A DNA stretch of 64,000 nt from Alkalimonas sp. (GTDB taxonomy: Bacteria; Pseudomonadota; Gammaproteobacteria; Enterobacterales; Alteromonadaceae). The position numbers and the translations under genes are program-made. Positions 9,453 to 38,753 of the stretch are shown here, piece by piece. Position 1 is the stretch's first letter, and each line of letters opens with the position of its first letter. The notes under the pieces were generated by a model that worked only from the letters and a program-made list of their open reading frames with translations, did not search any database and had not been told where the DNA came from. The stretch is taken from NCBI RefSeq assembly GCF_020831925.1, contig NZ_JAFIFQ010000011.1, positions 1 to 64,000 on the forward strand. Reading direction: 5' to 3'.

Positions 9453-9495
9453 AGTGTAACCTGCTGTCTGTCAACACACCAGCTGACCTGCGGCC

Positions 9496-9984
9496 TTACA
9501 TTACCTCTTGTTTGGGCGTGCCCGTTATCTTGCACTGTCCACCCACCAGACTTACCGCCGGCTCTGGCACTATGGCGCAATCCGACATCCGGCCAAGCCG
9601 GATATTTTCCGCTTCCGCCGCCTTGTTGTAACTGGCTATTTTTTGCTGCAGCACGGTTTCATTCAAACCCTTGGTAGAGTAGGCAATGTATTCCGCAGGC
9701 CCACCACAAGGTTTATGGCCAAAGCCTATCACCCGGCATTGCTGCACATCATCGGCTTCTGCCTGACCAATCATGCTAAGAATATCTGCCCGCATTTTCT
9801 GTAAATCAGGATGATCTCGCATTTGTCGCTCCCGCTCTTTTACCGCTGCTCTGGGGTTAGTGACCGGATCAATCGGCTCTATCAATGGCTCAGGAGCCAG
9901 TCGCTCCCCCCCAGCCTGGCCCTGCTGACAAGCACCAAGTAAGGTCACTGCAACCATAGCCATTAGCCAATTCAGTTTTCGCAT
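9496..9984 (-). CDS. Small lipoprotein of unknown function
   Basis: 162 residues. A basic N-terminus and hydrophobic stretch end in a lipobox (TLLGAC, Cys near residue 19), so the mature protein is a lipid-anchored periplasmic or outer-membrane protein. The mature part is charged, starting with a proline-rich linker (PEPLIEPIDPVTNP). It has paired cysteines (QQCRVIGFGHKPCGG, and DCAIV...GGQCKI) that could form disulfides. I do not recognise a family. It is divergent from the traT pair and has a good AGGAG ribosome site before ATG 9984. Confidence 0.7.
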   Translation of the reverse strand: MRKLNWLMAMVAVTLLGACQQGQAGGERLAPEPLIEPIDPVTNPRAAVKERERQMRDHPDLQKMRADILSMIGQAEADDVQQCRVIGFGHKPCGGPAEYIAYSTKGLNETVLQQKIASYNKAAEAENIRLGRMSDCAIVPEPAVSLVGGQCKITGTPKQEVM

Positions 9985-27099: not shown

Positions 27100-27335
27100 A
27101 TGCAAAGCTATACCATTTTGACCGCTCCAGTCGAACATCGCATCAGTGAGAAAAACAGCGACTTTCTGACCTTTTTGCAGCCGGTGCAAAACCGTGATGA
27201 AGCTATGCATTGGGTAGAGCAGTACCGCAACCGTTACCGCGATGCCATCCATGTCTGCTGGGCCTTTGTGATTGGCCATACCCGCCAACCAGAGGCACAA
27301 GCCTTTAGCGATGATGGCGAACCGAGCGGCACCGC
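27100..27335 (+). repeat. Direct repeat, left copy (yigZ 5' segment)
   Basis: 236-bp segment matching 28605-28840 in the same orientation with no indels; similarity stops abruptly after AGCGGCACCGC. A weaker match (TTTTTTC-G-TAT...ACTCA) continues into the leader of both copies. Confidence 0.85.
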
Positions 27336-27345
27336 AGAGTTGTAA
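27100..27345 (+). pseudogene. Truncated, diverged copy of the yigZ 5' region
   Basis: 81 codons that align without gaps to the first 79 codons of the intact yigZ at 28605, then run into a stop after GTAEL. By hand I count about 38 mismatches in 236 bases. Most are synonymous in the second half, where the protein is almost identical (QPVQNRDEAMHWVEQYRNRY); the first 16 codons differ more. The IMPACT-domain N-terminal half is incomplete and the C-terminal domain is missing. It is a remnant of a second allele rather than a working gene, although the frame is still open. Confidence 0.85.
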
Positions 27346-27455: not shown

Positions 27456-28523
27456 ATGACCACCATAAAGAAAACGCTGCTGTTAAGCCTGATAATGCTC
27501 ACAACCGGTTGTAGCAGTGCCTCGCAACTTGAAAACTGGCTGGCACAGAAACATTCTAATAGGGTGTATCAGAACAATCCGGGTACCATTTCGGCTGCTA
27601 TCGTTATGCGTGAAAGTAACCATTCACCGTATAGCAAAAACGGTTATAACCTGTGGCTAAGAACACTAGCCCATTACCGAGCACAGCCAAATGCGCTGAC
27701 CGGCAGACAATTAACAGCATTGGATTATCTTCCGCTAACAAGCATTCAAACGGACAGCATGCAGTTAACTTTCAGTTACGACAGTCGGTTAAACTGCCCG
27801 GAAGCAGATATCAATTCATGGCAGGAATTTCTTGCAAGCTCTTTTCCTGAACTTTTGTTTCAACAGTTCCAGTTGCCTTATGATGTCAGGGTACGCTTTG
27901 TCTCCAAACAATCGTTTCATTTTATGCATCGGATTGATCCAGTTGTCGCACAACTAAACTTTTACTTTCCGGCCGATTGCCAGGACATCCAGCAAGAAGA
28001 ATGGCGCGCTAGGCAGCTCGCCACCATCATCCATGAAATCACGCATATCGAACAGTTTTGGATTTTTGACAGATACAGCAGGCTCGTCCAGTTTCCCGAG
28101 GTCATTACGAAGTCGCCCCCAGACCCATACCGCCTCTTAGATGAGTACATTGCACATAAAATGGATATTTGTGCGATGCTTATCAGCGTGACGGATAGCT
28201 CCATTCCAGACAAGCCGATAATGCGATTTATTGTTAATCTGCCTACAGATTTCTCAGAAGACTATACACTACAAAATTTAGGGGTACGGGAAGTACTTAG
28301 CACTGATTACGATACTGCAAACTTTTCTGAAGGCGGTGGGCTTTACTCCACTCTCGGAGAGTTGCTGGCGAATGACTGGCTGGCAAAGTACGCCGATGAT
28401 GAGGGCTTTATCTTCCACAGTAGCACGATGGATGATAATTTTATCGGCGCTTGCCAAAGCATTTTAAGCGCGGAGGCTATCATTGAAGCTGGCCAGGAAA
28501 TTAAGCAATTACTGACAAAGTAA
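27456..28523 (+). CDS. Lipoprotein with a zincin-like HExxH motif
   Basis: 355 residues. The lipobox LTTGC (Cys19) marks a lipoprotein. HEITH at residues 193-197, inside IIHEITHIEQFW, has the zincin form, and E230 in LLDEYIAHK could be the third zinc ligand. I do not recognise a named peptidase family. Base composition is visibly richer in A/T than the neighbours. It lies between the two yigZ copies with a stem-loop just upstream, which suggests arrival by horizontal transfer or recombination. A metallopeptidase role is inferred from the motif only. Confidence 0.65.
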   Translation: MTTIKKTLLLSLIMLTTGCSSASQLENWLAQKHSNRVYQNNPGTISAAIVMRESNHSPYSKNGYNLWLRTLAHYRAQPNALTGRQLTALDYLPLTSIQTDSMQLTFSYDSRLNCPEADINSWQEFLASSFPELLFQQFQLPYDVRVRFVSKQSFHFMHRIDPVVAQLNFYFPADCQDIQQEEWRARQLATIIHEITHIEQFWIFDRYSRLVQFPEVITKSPPDPYRLLDEYIAHKMDICAMLISVTDSSIPDKPIMRFIVNLPTDFSEDYTLQNLGVREVLSTDYDTANFSEGGGLYSTLGELLANDWLAKYADDEGFIFHSSTMDDNFIGACQSILSAEAIIEAGQEIKQLLTK

Positions 28524-28604: not shown

Positions 28605-28840
28605 ATGAGTCACTTTACCATTCTTGCCGCCCCGCTTGAGCACCAGCTGTCGGAAAAAAACAGCGACTTCCTGACCTTTCTGCAGCCGGTGCAAAACCGC
28701 GACGAAGCCATGCATTGGGTAGAACAGTACCGCAACCGTTACCGCTATGCCAGTCATGTCTGCTGGGCCTTTGTGATTGGCAATACCCGCCAACCAGAGG
28801 CACAAGCCTTTAGCGATGATGGTGAGCCCAGCGGCACCGC
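28605..28840 (+). repeat. Direct repeat, right copy (inside intact yigZ)
   Basis: Counterpart of 27100-27335; about 84 percent identical by hand alignment, same orientation, no indels, and part of a continuous yigZ frame. Confidence 0.85.
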
Positions 28841-29216
28841 CGGCCGACCGATGCTGCATGTGCTGACGGAACGAGAACTTGGCAACAGCCTGGCGGTGGT
28901 GGTGCGTTATTTTGGTGGTGTCAAACTCGGTGCCGGTGGCCTGGTGCGAGCCTATTCTGCTGCCGTATCGCAAGCGGCTAGTCTGGCTGAACTGAGTACA
29001 ATAAGCCCGCAGACAGAGCTAAGCATTCAACTCGGTTTTGCCGATGAAAGCAAAGTACGGCAACTGCTTTGTGAGCATCAGGGCGAGCTATTAAACAGCG
29101 ATTACAGCCACCTGGTCACTCTAACCATCCGGCTGCCACAAAACGCTGAAGCAGTATTTTGCCAGCAACTGAGCAATCTAACTGCAGGCAGCGCCGTAAT
29201 TGACGGTCACGACTGA
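28605..29216 (+). CDS. yigZ: IMPACT/YigZ family protein (intact copy)
   Basis: 203 residues, the full family length. The N-terminal IMPACT domain has FSDDGEPSGTAGRPML and VVRYFGGVKLGAGGLVRAYS; the C-terminal half is the ferredoxin-like domain of the YigZ type. The cellular role is not settled; relatives bind nucleotides or act near translation control. Here it is the right-hand copy of a partial duplication, and the region between the copies carries a lipoprotein gene. No close operon partner; the condensin-like operon begins 103 nt downstream. Confidence 0.9.
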   Translation: MSHFTILAAPLEHQLSEKNSDFLTFLQPVQNRDEAMHWVEQYRNRYRYASHVCWAFVIGNTRQPEAQAFSDDGEPSGTAGRPMLHVLTERELGNSLAVVVRYFGGVKLGAGGLVRAYSAAVSQAASLAELSTISPQTELSIQLGFADESKVRQLLCEHQGELLNSDYSHLVTLTIRLPQNAEAVFCQQLSNLTAGSAVIDGHD

Positions 29217-29319: not shown

Positions 29320-32300
29320 ATGTCTCAATTACTTCGTATTGTGCTGATCCACACCCACCTGCCTGGTGTGGTGGAATTGCAGCTGGACCAGCACACCAAT
29401 ATTTGTGGCACCAATGCTTCGGGCAAAACCACCCTGCAGCGGCTGGTGCCGGTGTTTTACGGCGAGCAGCCGAACCGGGTGGTGCCCAAAACACGCAAAA
29501 AGTTTGATGAATTTTACCTGCCCTACTCCAACAGCTATCTGGTGTACGAGTACCGGCGTGAAAATGATGAGATCTGCCAGGTGGTGCTGACCAAGAAAAG
29601 CGATGGCGGTGTCGAGTACCGTTTTGTCGGCGCGCCTTACCAGAGCGATTTCTACCTGCAGCAAAGTGACGAAGGGGTCAAGGCGCTGAGCTACAGCGAC
29701 TGGGCCAGCGCCATGCGGGCCCGGCCCGATGTGCAGGTGTCGGCCAAAATCAGTGCCACTAGCGAGTACCGCAGTATTATTCAGAACGATGCTGCTGCGC
29801 TGCGCGGCAACAATGCCGACAGCGTCAAGTTGCGCCGGCTGGCAGCCAGTTTCAGCCTGGTGGCCAGTGGCCATAAGCTGCGCCATATTGAAAAGCTGGT
29901 CAGCGCCGTTCATGCCAAAGAAGGCAAAATGGACACCTTAAAAGCCATGCTGGCGGCCATTTTTGAAGAAGATGGTGTGACCCTGCCGACCACCAAGGTA
30001 AAAAACACCAAGGCGCGGGACTGGATCCAGCAAATGCGCCAATCGATGCGGCTGGACCGGCTGCAGCAGGATTTCGAGCGGCTGCAGCAACTAGCACTGC
30101 AACTGGATGGTGCCGAAGCCCAGCTGGCGGCTTTGCTGCCCCTGCTCGAACAGGATGAGCAGCAATTAAAGCAACAGCGCGCCGATGCCGAGCAGCAGGT
30201 GCAGAGCCTGCGCCAGCAACTGCAAAGTGCCAAAGAGCTGTATCAGCAGCAACAGCTGGAACACAACAGCCAGCTGGCCAAAGTCGAAGCCGATCTGCAT
30301 GAAACCTCGGCCCGGCTGGATCGCCTGCAGCAGCAGTTTGATGACTTTGACAGCAAAGACATGCCGAAGCTGCAGCGCGATACCGATGCGCTGCCGCTGT
30401 GGCGTGAAACCCTGCAAGAGCTGGCCGAACAGTACCAGTTGATGGTGGAGCAGCACGGCGATATGGAGCGTCAGCTGGAGCAGCGTAAAGCCAAACTGGC
30501 CGAATCCTTTAACCGCTTAAGCGAGCAGCACAGAGCCAAAGCCAAGCAGCTGCAGCAGCAAAAAGATCAGACCCGCGAGCAGCAGGACAACAAACTGGCC
30601 ACACTGGAACAGGCCTTTCAAAGCCGCTTGCACGAGCAACAACAAACCTTCGCCACTCAGCTAAGCGACTGCCACAGTGCCATCGCCGTGCTGCAAAGCC
30701 AGCTCAGCGCCTCGCCGCTGACCGAAGCCGAGCACGACGAGCTGCGCGCCGCCGAACTGCGGCTGGAACAAGCTCAGCAGCAGGCCCAGCAGCAGGCCCG
30801 CCAGCTGCAGCAGTTGCAAAAGCAGCATCAGCAAGCGCAGCAACAACGTGAGCAGGCCGATCAGCAGCTCGAGTCCAGCCGTAAAGCCCAGCACAGCGCC
30901 GAGCAGCAGCTGCACAGCCTTGAGCGCCAGTTAAGCCCAGAGCAAGGCAGTTTGCGCCATTTCCTGCGGCTTCATTACAACGGCTGGGAGCAAAAGCTGG
31001 GCAAGGTGCTGGACGAGCGGCTGCTGGAGCGGCACGATCTTCAGCCGCATCTGCTGGATCTGACCGACAGCCTCTATGGCCTGCAGCTGGATTTAGCAGC
31101 CATCGACACGCCGGATTACGCCCAGGACGAAGCCGCCATTCGTCACCGCCTGCACAGTGCCGGGCAACAGCTGGAGCAAGCCAACACCAACAAAGCCGCC
31201 GCCGAGAAGGCATTAAAAGACAAGTACGAGCAGGCCGAACTGGCCCGGGCCCAGCTGGAGCAGGCCGAATGGCAACTGACCCAGTACGAGCAAAACATCG
31301 ACTACGCCCGCGATGCCCGCAACCGCTTAGACGCTCAGCAGCGCGAGCTGGTGAAACAACGTCAGGCCTCTGTGCGCTCGGAGCTTGGCGCCCGTCAGCA
31401 GCAACTGGAAAAACTGCAGCATCAGCAGCAACAGGACTTGAATGGCCTGAAAGACGACCATAACAGCCAGAAAATGGAACTGAAAGCCGACTGGCAGGCC
31501 GAGCTGCAAGTGTTCGACGAGCAAATGGATGAGCTGGAGCGCCAGCTGGAGCGTAAGCGCGAAGACAACAAAAGCCAGCTGCGCGAGCTGCAGCTGGCCT
31601 TTGCCGAAGAACTGTCGGCCAAAGGCATCGATCCACGCCGTCTGGCGGAGCTGCGGCAAAAGCAGGACCAGCTCAAAGCCGATATTCAGGCCGTCACCGG
31701 GCGTCAGAATGAACTAAGCGCCTGGCAAAGCTTTATGCAACTGGACTGGCAGCAACTGCGCCCGCAACTGCTGGAGCAGGAAACCACGCTGAAACAGCAA
31801 CAGCGCAGCAGCCGTCAGGCGCTGGAGCAATTAAAAGCCGATTACAGCCAGCAGCAAAAGCAGCTGGATGCACAAAAGCAGCAGCATCAGGAGCAGATGC
31901 AACACGCCGAGCAGCGGCTGGCGCAATTAAAGCCGTGTTTAAGCAAGCTGGCCGAGCTGCACCTGAGCACCGTGAAGCCAGCCAGTCTGGCGGCCTGCGC
32001 CGATGTGATCGAGCGACTGTCCCGCACCAACGAAGCCCTGGAGCAGCGCAGCAAGCTCGATAGCGCACTGAAGCAGGCGATGGAGCAGTTTGAAAGCATG
32101 CTGAGTAAAGATGCCGGTCCTGAGTTTCTCGATCGGCTGGAGCATGAAAAACGCAAACTGCCCGACTACGCCGGCAAGCGCGAGCAGTTGCCCATCCTGT
32201 CCGATTTGCTGCGCATTTTAAAAGATGCCCAGCAACAGCTGCTGGAAATGGGCGAGAACATTGGCGGCGATCTGAAAAAGTTTTTCACCGTCTTTAGCGA

Positions 32301-32985
32301 CATCAACCGCCGTATTGCCCTGCAAAGCCGCCGCTTAAGCGAAGCCGTAGCCGACGATTTGGTGCTGGAAGGCATCAGCCGCTCGGAAGTACGCATTCTA
32401 TCCACCATCGACGAGCTGGGTTTCTGGCAGCCGCTGAAGCACTTCGCCAAGCTGTACGATGACTGGGGAGCTTCCGGCAAAGCCCTGCCCTCAGAGCAGT
32501 ACTTAAACGCCCTGGCCGATGTGGTCGAGCTGCTGCGCGCCGACGAGCAATACAGCATCGAATCGCTGCTGCGGCTGGAGCTGCATTTAAGCGAAGGCGG
32601 CTCCGAGCTGGTGATTAAAAACGACCGCCAGCTGCTGGAGTCGTCCAGCCATGGCATGGCGTACCTTATTCTGTGCAAATACCTACTGGCCTTTACCCGC
32701 TTGCTACGCGGCGATGCCAAGGTCAGCATTCATTGGCCGATTGATGAAATCGGCACCCTGGCGTACCACAACGTGGAAAAACTGTTCCAGGCTTGCAGCA
32801 GCAACAACATCGTGATTGTTGGCGCCTTCCCGAACCCGGAATCCGATGTGCTGATGCTGTTCCAGCACCGCTATCTGATTGAGCCAAGCCAGCAGGATCC
32901 GAGCAAACGTCAGCTTAAACGCATTCAACCCAAAGTCAGCCGCCTTGCTGAGCGACTGGCGCAGAAACAGCAGGAGGCCAGCTGA
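29320..32985 (+). CDS. mksB: SMC-like ATPase of an MksBEFG/Wadjet-type complex
   Basis: 1221 residues from ATG 29320 (ACAGGA ribosome site); the ORF-track start 21 bases earlier has no such site. Walker A GTNASGKTT is at 30-38. Long Gln/Glu/Leu coiled coils follow, with a globular hinge near 545-615 (HYNGWEQKLGKVLDERLL). The C-terminal head has a signature-like SSHGMAYLI near 1108 and Walker B PIDEIG near 1140. This N-head, coil, hinge, coil, C-head plan is that of MukB/MksB/JetC. First gene of a four-gene operon with one-base overlaps. It probably loops or extrudes DNA with its partners. The sequence is clearly diverged from textbook MukB, so exact family assignment needs a profile search. 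Confidence 0.78.
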   Translation: MSQLLRIVLIHTHLPGVVELQLDQHTNICGTNASGKTTLQRLVPVFYGEQPNRVVPKTRKKFDEFYLPYSNSYLVYEYRRENDEICQVVLTKKSDGGVEYRFVGAPYQSDFYLQQSDEGVKALSYSDWASAMRARPDVQVSAKISATSEYRSIIQNDAAALRGNNADSVKLRRLAASFSLVASGHKLRHIEKLVSAVHAKEGKMDTLKAMLAAIFEEDGVTLPTTKVKNTKARDWIQQMRQSMRLDRLQQDFERLQQLALQLDGAEAQLAALLPLLEQDEQQLKQQRADAEQQVQSLRQQLQSAKELYQQQQLEHNSQLAKVEADLHETSARLDRLQQQFDDFDSKDMPKLQRDTDALPLWRETLQELAEQYQLMVEQHGDMERQLEQRKAKLAESFNRLSEQHRAKAKQLQQQKDQTREQQDNKLATLEQAFQSRLHEQQQTFATQLSDCHSAIAVLQSQLSASPLTEAEHDELRAAELRLEQAQQQAQQQARQLQQLQKQHQQAQQQREQADQQLESSRKAQHSAEQQLHSLERQLSPEQGSLRHFLRLHYNGWEQKLGKVLDERLLERHDLQPHLLDLTDSLYGLQLDLAAIDTPDYAQDEAAIRHRLHSAGQQLEQANTNKAAAEKALKDKYEQAELARAQLEQAEWQLTQYEQNIDYARDARNRLDAQQRELVKQRQASVRSELGARQQQLEKLQHQQQQDLNGLKDDHNSQKMELKADWQAELQVFDEQMDELERQLERKREDNKSQLRELQLAFAEELSAKGIDPRRLAELRQKQDQLKADIQAVTGRQNELSAWQSFMQLDWQQLRPQLLEQETTLKQQQRSSRQALEQLKADYSQQQKQLDAQKQQHQEQMQHAEQRLAQLKPCLSKLAELHLSTVKPASLAACADVIERLSRTNEALEQRSKLDSALKQAMEQFESMLSKDAGPEFLDRLEHEKRKLPDYAGKREQLPILSDLLRILKDAQQQLLEMGENIGGDLKKFFTVFSDINRRIALQSRRLSEAVADDLVLEGISRSEVRILSTIDELGFWQPLKHFAKLYDDWGASGKALPSEQYLNALADVVELLRADEQYSIESLLRLELHLSEGGSELVIKNDRQLLESSSHGMAYLILCKYLLAFTRLLRGDAKVSIHWPIDEIGTLAYHNVEKLFQACSSNNIVIVGAFPNPESDVLMLFQHRYLIEPSQQDPSKRQLKRIQPKVSRLAERLAQKQQEAS

Positions 32986-33605
32986 TGCTGCAACACGGCC
33001 CTTTACTGGAACGGCTGCTGGCCGGTGACTTTATCTGTCAAATCAGCGACGAAGATGCCTTTCGCCACCTCGGCAATGAGCAAACCCAGCAGGACATCAA
33101 CCACTACCTGCGGCCACTGAACCGCCGGTTGGTTAGCAACGACGATGGCTCGGTGTTTTACCTGGGTTACCATGAGCTGACCAAAGAAGCCCGCGAGCAT
33201 TTAAGCAGCCAGTTTGCGCTCACCGTGCAATCCTTGCTGCCGCTGTTGGAGTGGCTGCAACTGGTGCAGGAAACCCTGGGCCGCGACAGCGCCCTGACCG
33301 CCGGTGATACCATCAAGCTGCAGGAGTTTGTGCTGCGCACCGAAGACAACCAAAGCCTGCGCCAGCGTCTGAACGCCCTTGCCAGCGACCGCTTTTTTAA
33401 CAGCCAGAGCGAGCAGCTGGACAGCCAGGTCAAACTGATTTTCCGCCGCTTAAAAGAGCACGGCTATCTGTTGCAACCGCACAGCGAACGCCAGTACTAC
33501 ATTGTCACCGGCAAAATTGACCATCTGCTGGATGTGATCCGCTTTATCCGCGATGAAGAGCAGCTGCCGGTGGACGATACCCCCAGCCAGGAGGCGCTGC
33601 TCTGA
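32985..33605 (+). CDS. mksE: MukE/MksE-like accessory subunit (JetB position)
   Basis: 206 residues; the start overlaps the upstream stop as TGATG. Predicted largely helical, with an N-terminal block (LLERLLAGDFICQISDEDAFRHL), a winged-helix-like centre and a basic end (SQVKLIFRRLKEHGYLLQPHSERQYYIVTGKID) of the kind seen in MukE/JetB wing domains. Identification rests on size, fold impression and its place between an SMC ATPase and a kleisin-like gene. It lacks the recognisable LLKGVLYR-type start of common JetB proteins, so it belongs to a divergent branch. Confidence 0.62.
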   Translation: MLQHGPLLERLLAGDFICQISDEDAFRHLGNEQTQQDINHYLRPLNRRLVSNDDGSVFYLGYHELTKEAREHLSSQFALTVQSLLPLLEWLQLVQETLGRDSALTAGDTIKLQEFVLRTEDNQSLRQRLNALASDRFFNSQSEQLDSQVKLIFRRLKEHGYLLQPHSERQYYIVTGKIDHLLDVIRFIRDEEQLPVDDTPSQEALL

Positions 33606-34846
33606 TGGCCCCGCTCGACTCACAGCTGACGTCCAATTTATTCAGCATCGGTGCCGAGCGTCTGGCCTTGCTTGGCAAGCACCACAAAGCCCTGATGCAG
33701 GGCTATCTGGATGGTCAGGTCGATGAAACGGCCTTTAGCGAAGGGGCGCTGAAAAAACTGATCGCCGCCCGGATTTTATGGCGACCAGACGAGCAACAGC
33801 CTTTGGCACTGCGGCCTTTGGTCAGTGAACTGATTGCCAGTATGGTGGCCGATGAAAACCGCCGCCAAATCAACGCCGATGTCGCCGAAAAGCTGGAACA
33901 AATCCGCAACCGGGTGCAGGCCTACCGCGATGCGCAGTACAAAGGCGATTACAGCGTGGCCGAGCTGCAGCTGCAGCGCCTGACCGAGCATGTGCACGAC
34001 TTAAGCGGCCAGTTTGAAGAGGCCATTGACAGCCTCTGGCACCGGCTGAACAGCGACTTTGGTTTTGTCAGTAGCCTGGATGATAAAATCCGCGAAAACG
34101 AACGGGCACAAAAGCAACTACGCCGTTTGCTGGATGGCCTGGATTTGCTCGATTTCAACGAACTGATTGAGCTGTCCGAAGGCAATAACCACCTGCGTAA
34201 ACTGCTGGTTAGTCAGCTGCAAAACCAGCTGAGCTCGCACCACAGCAGCTTGCTGGAAGTGCAAAAACGGCTGGTGCAGCTGCTGGCCAAGTTCCGTCAG
34301 CAGCAGGCCCGCTCGATGCTGATTGCCAATATGGCGGCCTTTTTGCGCCAGCATCCAAAATACCAGCCGGCCGATTACCCCAACCGCTCCGAGCTACCGT
34401 CGTTGTTCAATCAGGCGGCGGCCATCCGGCCACAAGCCGCCATCGCCCTGGATAAAGCCAGCGAGCGGGCGGTACTGGCCGAACTGGTGCGTGCCCTGCC
34501 ACGGCCAGGCAGCATCGAACTGCCCGAGCAGCACAGCGCCAGCTTTGCTGAGCTACTGGCCGATGAAGAAATCACCGCCCGCCAGCAGGCGCTGAAAACC
34601 GATGTGGAAAACTTCTACCTGAGGGTGATCGATCAGGGCGGCAAACTGAGTGCGCTGGATTATTTGGCCCAACAGCAACTGAGTTGGGACAGCGAGATCT
34701 GGCTGTATCAGATCCTGGCTGAATACCAGGCGCTGCCGTTGGAGGAAAAGCAGATGTTTGCCATTCGCCGCGAAGAAGCCCCGGCCAGCTCGGTTAACCA
34801 GCTGCTGCTGATCCGCGATATTCAGCTGACCCTGCGGGCGGCATAA
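33605..34846 (+). CDS. mksF: MukF/MksF-like kleisin subunit (JetA position)
   Basis: 413 residues, starting in a TGATG overlap with mksE. The N-terminal part looks like a winged helix (ALLGKHHKALMQGYLDG... LKKLIAARILWRP). A long helical middle follows (about 110-270, with EEAIDSLWHRLNSDFGF and a basic LRRLLDGLDLLDF segment), then a C-terminal winged-helix-like part ending in a helix. This is the layout of a kleisin that bridges the two SMC heads. Assignment is from architecture and operon position rather than clear sequence signatures. Confidence 0.6.
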   Translation: MAPLDSQLTSNLFSIGAERLALLGKHHKALMQGYLDGQVDETAFSEGALKKLIAARILWRPDEQQPLALRPLVSELIASMVADENRRQINADVAEKLEQIRNRVQAYRDAQYKGDYSVAELQLQRLTEHVHDLSGQFEEAIDSLWHRLNSDFGFVSSLDDKIRENERAQKQLRRLLDGLDLLDFNELIELSEGNNHLRKLLVSQLQNQLSSHHSSLLEVQKRLVQLLAKFRQQQARSMLIANMAAFLRQHPKYQPADYPNRSELPSLFNQAAAIRPQAAIALDKASERAVLAELVRALPRPGSIELPEQHSASFAELLADEEITARQQALKTDVENFYLRVIDQGGKLSALDYLAQQQLSWDSEIWLYQILAEYQALPLEEKQMFAIRREEAPASSVNQLLLIRDIQLTLRAA

Positions 34847-35712
34847 TGCTGCCGGTATTAAGCCCGGCAGCCTGCCGCTTTTTGCGTCAACTATCGCCTA
34901 AGGTGCTTGCCGCAGGCCGGCTGAAAAAATCAACCCGGCAAAAGTCTGTGCAGGAAGTCCTTTGCTGGTGTCTGGCGCATCAGCTGGAGCAGGTGCCCGG
35001 CAACTGTCTGCAGCGGCCGGATTTTTACTTCGAGCCAGCCCTGCTACAGCAAATTGCTGCGGTGCAACAGGCATTGGGGCACCCCGATTATCGGCTGGAT
35101 TTCTCGAACCAGAGCCGGCCGGATGCGGCCTTGCAAAGCCAGATTGAGCAAAAAAGTATTGGCATCAAACCACGGCAAGCAAGGATCTTACTGCGACTGC
35201 CTCAGCCCCAAAGGCTGGCTGGTATTGCCGTACAAGAACTTGATCTGGACTGGCAGCAGCTGTCGTTGCCCGACTATGAAGCCCTGCTGGTGGTGGAAAA
35301 CCTGGATTGCTTTTATCAGCTGGAGCGCTTTGCGATCGAGCTGCCTTACCAGCACATCCTGATCGTCTATCGCGGTGACCGCCACTACAGCAGCGGCTGC
35401 AAAGCACTTAAAGCCGCCTGGTTAAGTTTGCAAAAACCAACCATCTATTTTGGCGACTTTGATGGCAAAGGTGTCAGCATCGCCTTGCACGAAGGCTATC
35501 AGGCCATGCTGTTGCCAGCTTTTGCCGAGCTGCAACAACAGGTCAGTGCAGCCATGCTGCCCGATAAACAGCTAAAATTCCTGCCCGCGACCGAACAACA
35601 CCCGACCAGCCCAGCTTTTCAACCTTACCAACAATTGCTTTGCCAGCAACTCAAGGGACTGCGGCAGCAACAGATGCAGGGGATGGCGCTAGCGCCTGTC
35701 TTGTTGAGCTAA
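34846..35712 (+). CDS. mksG: Toprim-type nuclease subunit (MksG/JetD-like)
   Basis: 288 residues, starting in a TAATG overlap with mksF. The C-terminal half is a Toprim fold: Glu151 in LLVVENLDCF and the DxD pair D204/D206 in YFGDFDGKG, the metal-binding set of topoisomerase VI-type and JetD nucleases. JetD cuts plasmid DNA in Wadjet systems. The N-terminal region is short, with basic patches (LKKSTRQKSVQEV). Its presence as last gene of the operon argues for plasmid defence over a purely structural condensin. Confidence 0.68.
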   Translation: MLPVLSPAACRFLRQLSPKVLAAGRLKKSTRQKSVQEVLCWCLAHQLEQVPGNCLQRPDFYFEPALLQQIAAVQQALGHPDYRLDFSNQSRPDAALQSQIEQKSIGIKPRQARILLRLPQPQRLAGIAVQELDLDWQQLSLPDYEALLVVENLDCFYQLERFAIELPYQHILIVYRGDRHYSSGCKALKAAWLSLQKPTIYFGDFDGKGVSIALHEGYQAMLLPAFAELQQQVSAAMLPDKQLKFLPATEQHPTSPAFQPYQQLLCQQLKGLRQQQMQGMALAPVLLS

Positions 35713-35753
35713 ACTTCCTTCAATCAGCTGCATGCTTGCCAGCAAGCGGCATC

Positions 35754-35782
35754 TTGACAACCAGTTCGTTTCTACCTAGTAT
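35754..35782 (+). promoter_or_regulatory. Orphan sigma-70-like promoter facing into the Abi gene
   Basis: TTGACA (perfect -35), a 17-nt spacer and TAGTAT; a TATAAT lies 3 bases further on. It reads toward the 3' end of the convergent Abi_2 gene and has no sense gene downstream. TTGACAA and TTGTCAA form an inverted repeat around it (35754-35791). It could drive an antisense RNA. Confidence 0.45.
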
Positions 35783-35829
35783 AATTGTCAATATGCCCGG
35801 CGCCTCTGCATCACTGCACGCGTCGGTTC

Positions 35830-36792
35830 TCATTTCTGACACAGCGAAAGCCATAGCTCCCTCCAGTGAGAGTTCAGGCCTAAATCATCCAACACCAAAG
35901 CCCCATTGTTCGTTTCGGGGAAGTCCTCTAAAAGCTCCATTAGCCGTTTCCCCCAACTGGAGTTCGGACATATGACTGCCATCATTTTTTGCATGATACA
36001 AAAGTACATGAATGGCTTGGCATTATCTAAACCAAGCCATTCCTGAGGCAATGGAGAACGCTCCAGCACATTGATATTCCATAGTCGACTGTGATGGGCT
36101 GCTACATTTCGAATGAAGTTAAGACTGCGCAACCACCTCGCCAAAACATCTCCACTGGCTAAGCCATACTTATTGGCGATTTGATTTTTATCGTGGTACT
36201 TCATGCCGGCAAACAACCGGGATAGTAAGCCAAAATCCCAAACTTCGATAGCAACCCAAATCGGTAAATGCCCTTGATACTTTGCACTATGATGCTCGAT
36301 AAAAGGCTCCTTCCTGGCACGCCAAACCATGGTTTCGAATTTTTCAAGCCACAGTTGGTGATCTGTCTTTCCTTGATGGGGCCCTCTACGATTGGCTCTT
36401 TTGGCGAAGTTTCCATGCAGACACTCAGGATTTTGGTGCGCACAAGGGTCCTTTGCACCCAACAAATAGGCCACATCTACACGGATCGCCATTTCAATCC
36501 GCTCCAACGCATCAAGCGCTAATAGCCTTAGCCTCTTATCAAACACATAAAGTTGAACCACATCTTCAAAGTGACTGTCTGGCACAAAGTTATCGGAACG
36601 AACTGGACGGCGTTGCGTTGCAGTATGAGCATGGTCGATGGCACGAAGTGGATACCAGTAACCGCTGAGTCGGTAATAGCCAATTCTGGAAAGATAGTTT
36701 AATGCAGCAGCCTCGTGGTCTACTTTCAGACCGCGTTGCTGCAGAATGTTCAGTTGCTCTTCCATTGAGCGCCAAGGTTTTAATTCAGGCAT
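35830..36792 (-). CDS. Abi_2 (AbiD/AbiF-type) abortive-infection protein with HEPN motif
   Basis: 320 residues. The family start (QLNILQQRGLKVDHEAAALNYLSRIGYYRLSGYWYPLR) and middle (LYVFDKRLRLLALDALERIEMAIR) match Abi_2 proteins. The RNase-type HEPN motif RNVAAHHSRLWN (R-x4-H) lies near residue 240. Members cause abortive phage infection in lactococci and are thought to cut RNA. The GC content is low compared with the genes outside the islet. It lies 86 nt downstream of the nuclease-like gene on the same strand, so they could be one transcript. The usual toxin partner is not obvious. Confidence 0.85.
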   Translation of the reverse strand: MPELKPWRSMEEQLNILQQRGLKVDHEAAALNYLSRIGYYRLSGYWYPLRAIDHAHTATQRRPVRSDNFVPDSHFEDVVQLYVFDKRLRLLALDALERIEMAIRVDVAYLLGAKDPCAHQNPECLHGNFAKRANRRGPHQGKTDHQLWLEKFETMVWRARKEPFIEHHSAKYQGHLPIWVAIEVWDFGLLSRLFAGMKYHDKNQIANKYGLASGDVLARWLRSLNFIRNVAAHHSRLWNINVLERSPLPQEWLGLDNAKPFMYFCIMQKMMAVICPNSSWGKRLMELLEDFPETNNGALVLDDLGLNSHWRELWLSLCQK

Positions 36793-36878
36793 TAATTAGA
36801 TTCCAGCTCATGAAATCATGATGAAAAAAACCGCAAACAACCACTGAAAATTAACTATCAACACTTCGAGCCCACACC

Positions 36879-38753
36879 TCAAATACTTTTTGCGATTAAA
36901 TCGGCTTTCAGCAACCCGCCTTTGGTTAGTAAACGAGCGGAGAAATTTGGTTTGCGTTTACTCCGATAGGCATCATAAATTTGCTTTAGCCCATCCGCTG
37001 TGAGTAAAGAGATATTCACCTCGGTATCCATCTCAGCTGACTCAATAAAATCCTGCGAAAAACTTGGAGCAATAATCAGCACCTGTGCGACACGTTTTCC
37101 CTGATTTTCGCATCGTTTAACATAGGCCTTTATCTGCCGTGAAGTGCTGGAGTATTTTGCAAAATCACCATTCTTGCAGGTTTTGGCCTCACCAATAATA
37201 ATATCGTCATCGCTAATGGACAGGATAATATCAGCTTTATCTTTAGCCGTGTTTATCGACTTGCGAAGCTCTTCATCCACATTCAAATCCATCTGCTCCA
37301 GGATAGTTTTGGTGGCCTCCTCAAATTTCAGACCAAGATCTGCCTCGGAGACATCAATACCTGATTCTTTAAGCCCCATCAGATCACGTCGAGCTAAAGC
37401 AGCAAAATTTTCAATCAATTTATCATTTGCGCTGGCGAATACATCAAGCAGATGAAATCTTGGGTTACCCTTTTTGGGAAGATTCATCGTATCCCGCAAC
37501 TCTCTCATTTCATCGTTGCTAATTAAATAAAGCAGGTCATGTGGGGTGATGCTCAAAGCTCGTAACCGCTCGACATTGATTTCTTCAGTATCTTCAAGCT
37601 CAAACTCTCTTTTGAGACGTTGTGAAAGTGACTCTTGGCGGCCATCAGGATCTTTGCCATGGAAGCTCTCCTCCAGCGCATCGAACATTTCTTTATAGCC
37701 TGTTGCGCTCATGGCATTAAATTCACGATCAGTAGCTGTATTCAAACTATCCAGAATGACATCTATCCGCTCATCGACTGTTTGCCCTATTCGCTCAGCT
37801 TCAATATCCAGATCTGTGATCAGCTGCTTCAAGCGCTCTTTGCGTTTATTTTGACTTTCATTTTCGTCATACAGATCCCTTCCTAGCATATCCCTGACAG
37901 AAATACCGGAATGCATGATGGTTGAAATTCTCTCACTGCGGGAAACCCCACGAATTCGCTTACCATAACTTTTAAGAATGTTGGCAAGTTCAGCGTCGGA
38001 TAGCACCCGTAATATCCTTAACAAATGCTTATCCGCCAACTCTTTATGTTGAATTTGGTTAAGTATGGCAACGACTTCGTCAGGAATCAGTACTTCTGAG
38101 CGCTTCCGGTTGATGAAAATCACCCCCATCTCGCGTAAGTCCTGCAAACAATTTTCGACTGTTTCCTTCCCCGCTTTTATCGGATCAGACAGATGCTCAA
38201 TAGCTACGACTTCATCGTGAGAAATTTTCAGGTGCTGGGCGAGGACATTGAGAATACTTCGTTCATCATCAGAGATATTGGCTTGCCTGTTCGTTTTAAG
38301 ATCGTTGGAGTAGGCAATTTTAAGGCAGTCATTAAAAATCTTAAGTCGATGTTCACGACAGTAGTTATCCGCTGTACAGCTGTTTACCTCTTGCTGTATT
38401 TGCCTCGAAAGCGAGTCCAGCACCTCCCATTCCCGACTATATAATTGCTCTAGCCAACTAATTCGGGCTACGCCATTACCATCACGGCTTAGTATATTAA
38501 CCAGCAAAGCCATAGAGGCATCACAGAGTGTCAGCCGTTCTTCAATCGCAGCTTTGTAGTGACTGGAAACTGCCGCAAATAGCTGTGAGATTTCGCTACC
38601 TGATGCATCTTTGATTTGACGGTTGACCTTATTCAAGGTTTTGTCGATAACTGAATCATAAGCCGCAGCATTGCTGCACAACTTGTCCAGACAGGTAATG
38701 AACTTAGATTTTTCAATTTGATTTAGCGCAGACAGAACTTGGTTCAACTTCAT
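36879..38753 (-). CDS. Large protein with C-terminal PD-(D/E)XK-like nuclease core
   Basis: 624 residues; I do not recognise a named family. Helical N-terminal part, then a winged-helix-like stretch near 170-240. Two short SAP-like helix-extended-helix segments (SDAELANILKSYGKR; SNDEMRELRDTMNLPKKGNPRF) may bind DNA. The last 150 residues carry a restriction-nuclease-like core: KADIIL with D508, and IIIGEAKT with E522-x-K524, followed by a helix and VAQVLIIAPSF. All three catalytic positions are present, so an active nuclease is plausible. Next to Abi_2 and the MksBEFG operon it is a good candidate defence effector. That role is inference. Confidence 0.6.
   Translation of the reverse strand: MKLNQVLSALNQIEKSKFITCLDKLCSNAAAYDSVIDKTLNKVNRQIKDASGSEISQLFAAVSSHYKAAIEERLTLCDASMALLVNILSRDGNGVARISWLEQLYSREWEVLDSLSRQIQQEVNSCTADNYCREHRLKIFNDCLKIAYSNDLKTNRQANISDDERSILNVLAQHLKISHDEVVAIEHLSDPIKAGKETVENCLQDLREMGVIFINRKRSEVLIPDEVVAILNQIQHKELADKHLLRILRVLSDAELANILKSYGKRIRGVSRSERISTIMHSGISVRDMLGRDLYDENESQNKRKERLKQLITDLDIEAERIGQTVDERIDVILDSLNTATDREFNAMSATGYKEMFDALEESFHGKDPDGRQESLSQRLKREFELEDTEEINVERLRALSITPHDLLYLISNDEMRELRDTMNLPKKGNPRFHLLDVFASANDKLIENFAALARRDLMGLKESGIDVSEADLGLKFEEATKTILEQMDLNVDEELRKSINTAKDKADIILSISDDDIIIGEAKTCKNGDFAKYSSTSRQIKAYVKRCENQGKRVAQVLIIAPSFSQDFIESAEMDTEVNISLLTADGLKQIYDAYRSKRKPNFSARLLTKGGLLKADLIAKSI

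Follow-up and report, generated by a model that had tools for sequence, protein, structure and literature searches.

Wadjet systems are the background for any reading in which an SMC complex restricts circular DNA (PMC10586767, PMC10123090), and MksBEF of Pseudomonas aeruginosa organises chromosomes (PMC7485682). How are the two related? According to reviews, MukBEF and MksBEF may descend from Wadjet by loss of the nuclease, a relationship that is left unresolved (PMC10586767). Type I Wadjet, or JetABCD, which is the MksBEFG of Corynebacterium glutamicum, has its genes in the order A-B-C-D, with the kleisin first and the nuclease last. The MukBEF genes stand in the order MukF-MukE-MukB, encode a MukB of about 1490 aa that carries PF04310 and include no nuclease. 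Lamassu consists of an SMC (LmuB) and an effector (LmuA), and has no kleisin. The founding MksBEF paper, by Petrushenko in 2011, reportedly described several subfamilies, and the B-E-F core discussed here may be among them.

The window analysed is a stretch of 64,000 nucleotides from Alkalimonas sp. (contig NZ_JAFIFQ010000011.1). At 29320-35712, on the forward strand, it carries an operon of four genes: B, an SMC-type ATPase with DUF3584 in the MksB/JetC position (29320-32985, 1221 aa); E, a KITE-like subunit in the MksE/JetB position (32985-33605, 206 aa); F, a kleisin-like subunit in the MksF/JetA position (33605-34846, 413 aa); and G, a Toprim nuclease in the JetD/MksG position (34846-35712, 288 aa). 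The reading frames, their lengths and the stop/start overlaps that join them (TGATG at B/E and at E/F, TAATG at F/G) are exactly as the initial annotation gave them. An alternative GTG start for B lies seven codons upstream of the ATG at 29320; the ATG is taken as the start because it yields the same length as in the congener L049.

Relatives were gathered from whole genomes with a profile and from GTDB genomes with a pattern, a non-random sample from which 57 loci, non-redundant and with B, E and F all complete, were kept. The order B-E-F is found in all 57 of them, and G is last in each of the 32 that have it. The ATPase-first order, pointed out at the outset as unusual, is thus a shared trait of the family. 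In nearly all relatives, neighbouring genes overlap or directly adjoin. Chance is not a plausible source of the operon, as its gene order recurs throughout, B matches PF12128 with 809 bits over its whole length in a Pfam profile search, and G matches PF23947 (DUF7281) with 65 bits.

The ATPase has the Walker A motif GTNASGKTT and the Walker B motif PIDEIG (context HWPIDEIG) that had been read from the sequence, together with a signature motif, ESSSHGMAYL. These motifs are invariant, and G16, N32, G35, K36, T37, S1109, S1110, G1112, D1142 and E1143 are unchanged among 13 divergent homologues. The copy in another Alkalimonas sp. (L069) is 91% identical. In a tree of the ATPase heads, the B-E-F(-G) ATPases form one clade (support 100/100) that is apart from JetC, MukB and SMC and adjoins a group of short ATPases (97/96); some of the type I JetC sequences in the tree are partial, and the B-E-F(-G) clade is independent of them. 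By hhalign, the N-terminal head of B reaches 97.7% against the short group, 97.3% against type I JetC and 68% against MukB. Matches to the PADLOC models are slight: 13 bits for JetC1, 15 bits for JetC3, with its best stretch in the coiled coil, and 10.7 bits for LmuB. No match to PF04310, the MukB N-terminal domain, is present in B or elsewhere in the window's genome.

Are the small subunits as devoid of the usual sequence marks as the initial annotation had them? This is true of F, but not of E, which matches the MksE family PF21980 above its cut-off (29.1 bits against 27), as does the E homologue of a cyanophage (28.8 bits). In hhalign, E gives 66% with the short-type MksE, 9% with JetB and 1% with MukE; its PADLOC matches are 19 bits at most. 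F and 35 homologues (36 sequences in total) matched no Pfam or PADLOC family. PDB sequence searches with each of the four proteins, and with profiles of all but B, gave nothing usable except TopoVI-A for G (E 0.04), and fold comparison was therefore needed. The AlphaFold2 model of F (pLDDT 79, pTM 0.44) has winged-helix-like N- and C-terminal ends around long helices. Its top PDB matches are JetA of the E. coli Wadjet, MukF of MukE-MukF and MukF of MukBEF; these are weak (E 0.002-0.02), and every named, non-designed protein at the top is a kleisin entry of MukBEF or Wadjet. F is thus weakly assigned, by these structural matches of its model, as a kleisin-like subunit.

The nuclease is better marked. 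Besides DUF7281, G matches the JetD_C family PF09983 above its cut-off (25.2 bits against 22), and the predicted Toprim set E151, D204 and D206 is in place and, with N152, G177 and G209, invariant over 22 homologues. The PDB entries closest to the model of G (pLDDT 91) are TopoVI-A (4e-5) and P. aeruginosa JetD (8e-5, prob 0.98), and in the alignment E151 and D204xD206 fall on the Glu and DxD of JetD. By hhalign, G gives 95% with the short group and 89% with JetD; PADLOC scores reach 24 bits at most, and the JetD3 match (22.7 bits) covers the Toprim core only. G lacks the DUF3322 arm and, at 288 vs about 390 aa, has some 100 residues fewer than JetD, so its regulation may differ from that of JetD. 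DUF7281 is not mentioned in the literature searched, and the few papers on DUF3584 look unrelated by title.

Where, then, does the operon belong? In gene content it is Wadjet-like, with SMC, kleisin, KITE and Toprim nuclease in one operon, the kleisin being recognized by weak fold matches; the functional class proposed initially is supported by the profiles and by the fold matches of F and G. It has in common with type I Wadjet the four subunit classes, the nuclease gene in last place and the Toprim Glu and DxD. It differs in that the ATPase gene comes first (C-B-A(-D) in Jet letters), the DUF3375 kleisin and the DUF3322 arm are missing, B falls in a clade of its own and many operons have no nuclease. 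SMC, kleisin and KITE are common to MukBEF also, and the F model matches MukF. The kleisin-like and KITE-like subunits set the operon apart from Lamassu. Nearest to it are short-ATPase MksBEF loci (e.g. L063, L067), the best hhalign partners for all four subunits, although that comparison draws on some small reference sets and on JetC C-heads that are in part truncated. These loci share with the operon a PF21980-type E, a DUF7281 Toprim G and sister ATPase clades; they differ in their order F-E-B-G and in an ATPase of 917-956 aa, as against about 1220 aa with DUF3584 here, and F is not confidently alignable between the two (hhalign 23%, compared with 0.1% and 3% for the type I and Muk counterparts). 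The name P. aeruginosa-type MksBEF for loci such as L063 comes from PF21980 (121 bits) and not from a named PAO1 sequence. Five of the loci (L063, L064, L065, L067, L068) are MksBEF-like in their short ATPase and F-E-B-G order and include a DUF7281 nuclease; an MksBEF with its own Toprim subunit thus exists outside type I Wadjet.

The operon might belong to one of the described Wadjet types (I, II or III) and have diverged so far that profile libraries miss it, and the faint PADLOC resemblance of G to JetD1 and JetD3 and of E to JetB1 could be taken as a trace of such an origin. This is most improbable, however, given that all four subunits are nearer to the short MksBEF than to type I by hhalign, that the B clade is fully supported and apart from JetC, and that the gene order differs. 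Against the PADLOC Wadjet models, B reaches 15 bits at best, E 19 and G 24, and F has no match, compared with hundreds of bits for type I control subunits; DUF3375, DUF4194 and DUF3322 each exceed 100 bits in those controls (510 for DUF3375) but not in these proteins. Types II and III were compared through PADLOC models only; the type II subunit models matched none of the window's proteins, and genome scans with JetD2 (weak matches) and JetC3 (mostly coiled coils) yielded no operon for a direct tree. The JetA-D, MukBEF and Mks profiles place the four proteins neither in type I Wadjet nor in MukBEF. The separate subtype first suggested thus stands as a distinct, unlabelled lineage, with one refinement, that its nearest kin are the short-ATPase MksBEF group and not type I Wadjet. 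From the hhalign results and the head tree, B-E-F(-G) appears to stand with MksBEF, as a lineage of its own with Wadjet-like parts, a distinct clade by sequence beside the short-ATPase MksBEF.

The host genome has SMC and ScpA, and MukB was not found in it; the operon is thus an extra condensin-type system. By analogy with known relatives, B-E-F would assemble into an ATP-driven, DNA-loop-extruding SMC complex of the Mks/Wadjet kind, built of ATPase, KITE and kleisin, and G would be a Toprim (TopoVI-A-like) endonuclease, delivered and activated by this complex. Where the host has G, completion of extrusion on small or medium circular DNA would lead to double-strand cleavage, so that plasmids would be restricted and the chromosome spared; the sensing of DNA size and shape that this implies is likewise modelled on the relatives. 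G would be an accessory that is gained, lost or exchanged, and the core without it would most likely act as a second condensin on the chromosome. We consider it probable that the operon encodes a loop-extruding SMC complex of this kind, which restricts circular DNA when G is present, with condensin work possible when it is not.

The operon is found in Halomonas, Vreelandella, Alteromonas, Paraglaciecola, Shewanella, Stutzerimonas, Azotobacter, Idiomarina, Ferrimonas and Photobacterium, among other genera. B-E-F-G sets are also carried by large plasmids, where F was matched on records from 107 kb up to 1.17 Mb in size; in a Vibrio campbellii plasmid copy, B and F are each annotated in two pieces. 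The plasmids with full sets are at least 107 kb, which fits reports of Wadjet sparing large DNA (PMC10586767), but such plasmids might carry the set just because they are large. On a Raoultella plasmid (L161, 6995-7660) there is a fragment of the B head interrupted by an IS630 element, and the same short B-head match is found on several other enterobacterial plasmids. A complete B-E-F-G set is present in the Dolichospermum phage Dfl-JY45 (209 kb; L158, PP438435.1, 85224-98438), where each of the four genes is labelled hypothetical and the Glu and DxD of G are intact. A predicted SMC-type restriction machine borne by a cyanophage is unusual. A scan of viral_contigs with the B alignment found no relative.

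Next to G, on the opposite strand, the window has a gene for an Abi_2 family protein (35830-36792, 320 aa; PF07751, 187.7 bits), which adjoins G in the congeners L049 and L055 also. Comparison of the window with L049 reveals a sharp discontinuity. Identity is 87-95% across B, E and F, falls at the F/G junction (alignment end 34849) to 55-77% across G and the Abi_2 gene, and is again 91% from 36861. Synonymous divergence follows the same pattern: dS is 0.47 for B, 0.28 for E, 0.54 for F and 0.40 for a 624-aa gene further on, as opposed to 1.69 for G (bootstrap 1.15 to saturated) and saturation for Abi_2. Rapid evolution of the proteins would not by itself increase dS, so the sequence comparison is better explained by recombination: G and Abi_2, a diverged block at 34846-36861, were probably replaced together, in one lineage.

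Does the Abi_2 gene point to a defence against phage or other replicating DNA, rather than plasmids, with the two genes as an abortive-infection pair? Their adjacency in the genus and common diverged block would suit such a role, as would a phage that carries the set, possibly against competitors. Yet Abi_2 is unlinked to the operon outside the genus and lies on the other strand, and the known relatives act on circular DNA; a phage-directed function is, we think, quite improbable. Abi_2 as a fixed partner of the system was rejected, as no downstream family recurs across loci. Other features surround the operon. The 624-aa protein (36879-38753, reverse strand) borders the diverged block in low-GC DNA; it has no Pfam match above cut-off and is 97% identical in L049, and the sequence of its C-terminal part is reminiscent of a PD-(D/E)xK nuclease (DIILSISDDDIIIGEAKT). 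Upstream of the operon are a truncated start of yigZ (IMPACT family, 27100-27345) and a complete yigZ (28605-29216), separated by a gene for 355 aa with an HExxH motif (27456-28523). The arrangement suggests an insertion that duplicated part of its neighbour.

G is optional: it is present in 32 of the 57 loci and absent from 25, with B, E and F intact throughout. On the tree of B heads, E and F, there are at least 10 changes between presence and absence of G among the starred branches, and the tree is compatible with either gain or loss. In L050, the nearest relative from outside the genus, B, E and F are present and G is missing. Of particular interest is a Shewanella site where a G-bearing operon (L079) and G-less ones (L082, L083, L096) occupy the same position; homology stops at the F stop codon and restarts before the same downstream gene. 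Degenerate G sequences were absent from the five G-less operons examined. A search of the 25 G-less genomes with the G profile, which finds G in G-bearing loci though this search held no internal positive, detected none elsewhere. An alternative fourth gene was considered and rejected; the genes checked downstream of G-less operons are unrelated and of housekeeping type (PhoU, aminotransferase, deacetylase, HDOD/EAL, MaoC). A broken remnant of a second G, without B, E or F neighbours, lies at 9473-9882 on the reverse strand of L057, in a genome that has a complete B-E-F-G set elsewhere (L056).

Might the system be mainly a chromosome condensin, a second MksBEF, with G as a maintenance enzyme such as a decatenase-like or repair nuclease? 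Operons without G are common and intact, and 7-9 flanking gene families are kept around the G-less operon in Alteromonas/Salinimonas. Two G-less Shewanella compared with each other give an omega of about 0.06 for B, E and F, consistent with purifying selection, and the fixed chromosomal sites in these genera look more housekeeping-like than defence-like. Known MksBEF also has a chromosomal role in P. aeruginosa (PMC7485682). No SMC, MukB or ScpA was found in G400, which has B-E-F-G, or in the possibly incomplete genome of Psychromonas sp. CD1 (G417), which has B-E-F, and this suggests that the B-E-F core can serve as the only condensin. The missing proteins alone are no proof of it, since G393 lacks all three and has no DUF3584 match either. 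A maintenance enzyme, however, would hardly behave as G does: it is often absent, travels on phage and plasmids, diverges with Abi_2 as if exchanged and shows faster protein evolution (omega about 0.11 vs 0.05 for its partners in Halomonadaceae pairs, where its dS equals theirs). A mainly chromosomal role for the whole operon is thus rather unlikely.

Plasmid restriction with G and condensin work without it is the reading that we prefer, and with G missing from 25 of 57 operons whose core is intact, plasmid defence and chromosome condensation may not be alternatives. We tentatively go further, in a proposal that falls somewhat short of probable: B-E-F may be a dual-use core that switches between condensin without G and plasmid restriction with it, over short evolutionary times and at fixed sites, with G as a cassette that in the genus includes Abi_2.

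The system escaped the defence models tried and may, in Shewanella, Halomonas, Alteromonas, Stutzerimonas and others, hinder plasmid transfer in a way that has gone unrecognised. Nearly identical operons, some with the nuclease and some without, are found side by side, in one case at a single Shewanella site, and this makes the question of descent between condensins and Wadjet testable by adding or removing one gene. Repeated absence or probable exchange of the nuclease offers a natural test of conversion between defence and chromosome organisation. If true, the dual-use reading would be direct evidence for the descent of MksBEF and MukBEF from nuclease-bearing defence complexes, or for the reverse.
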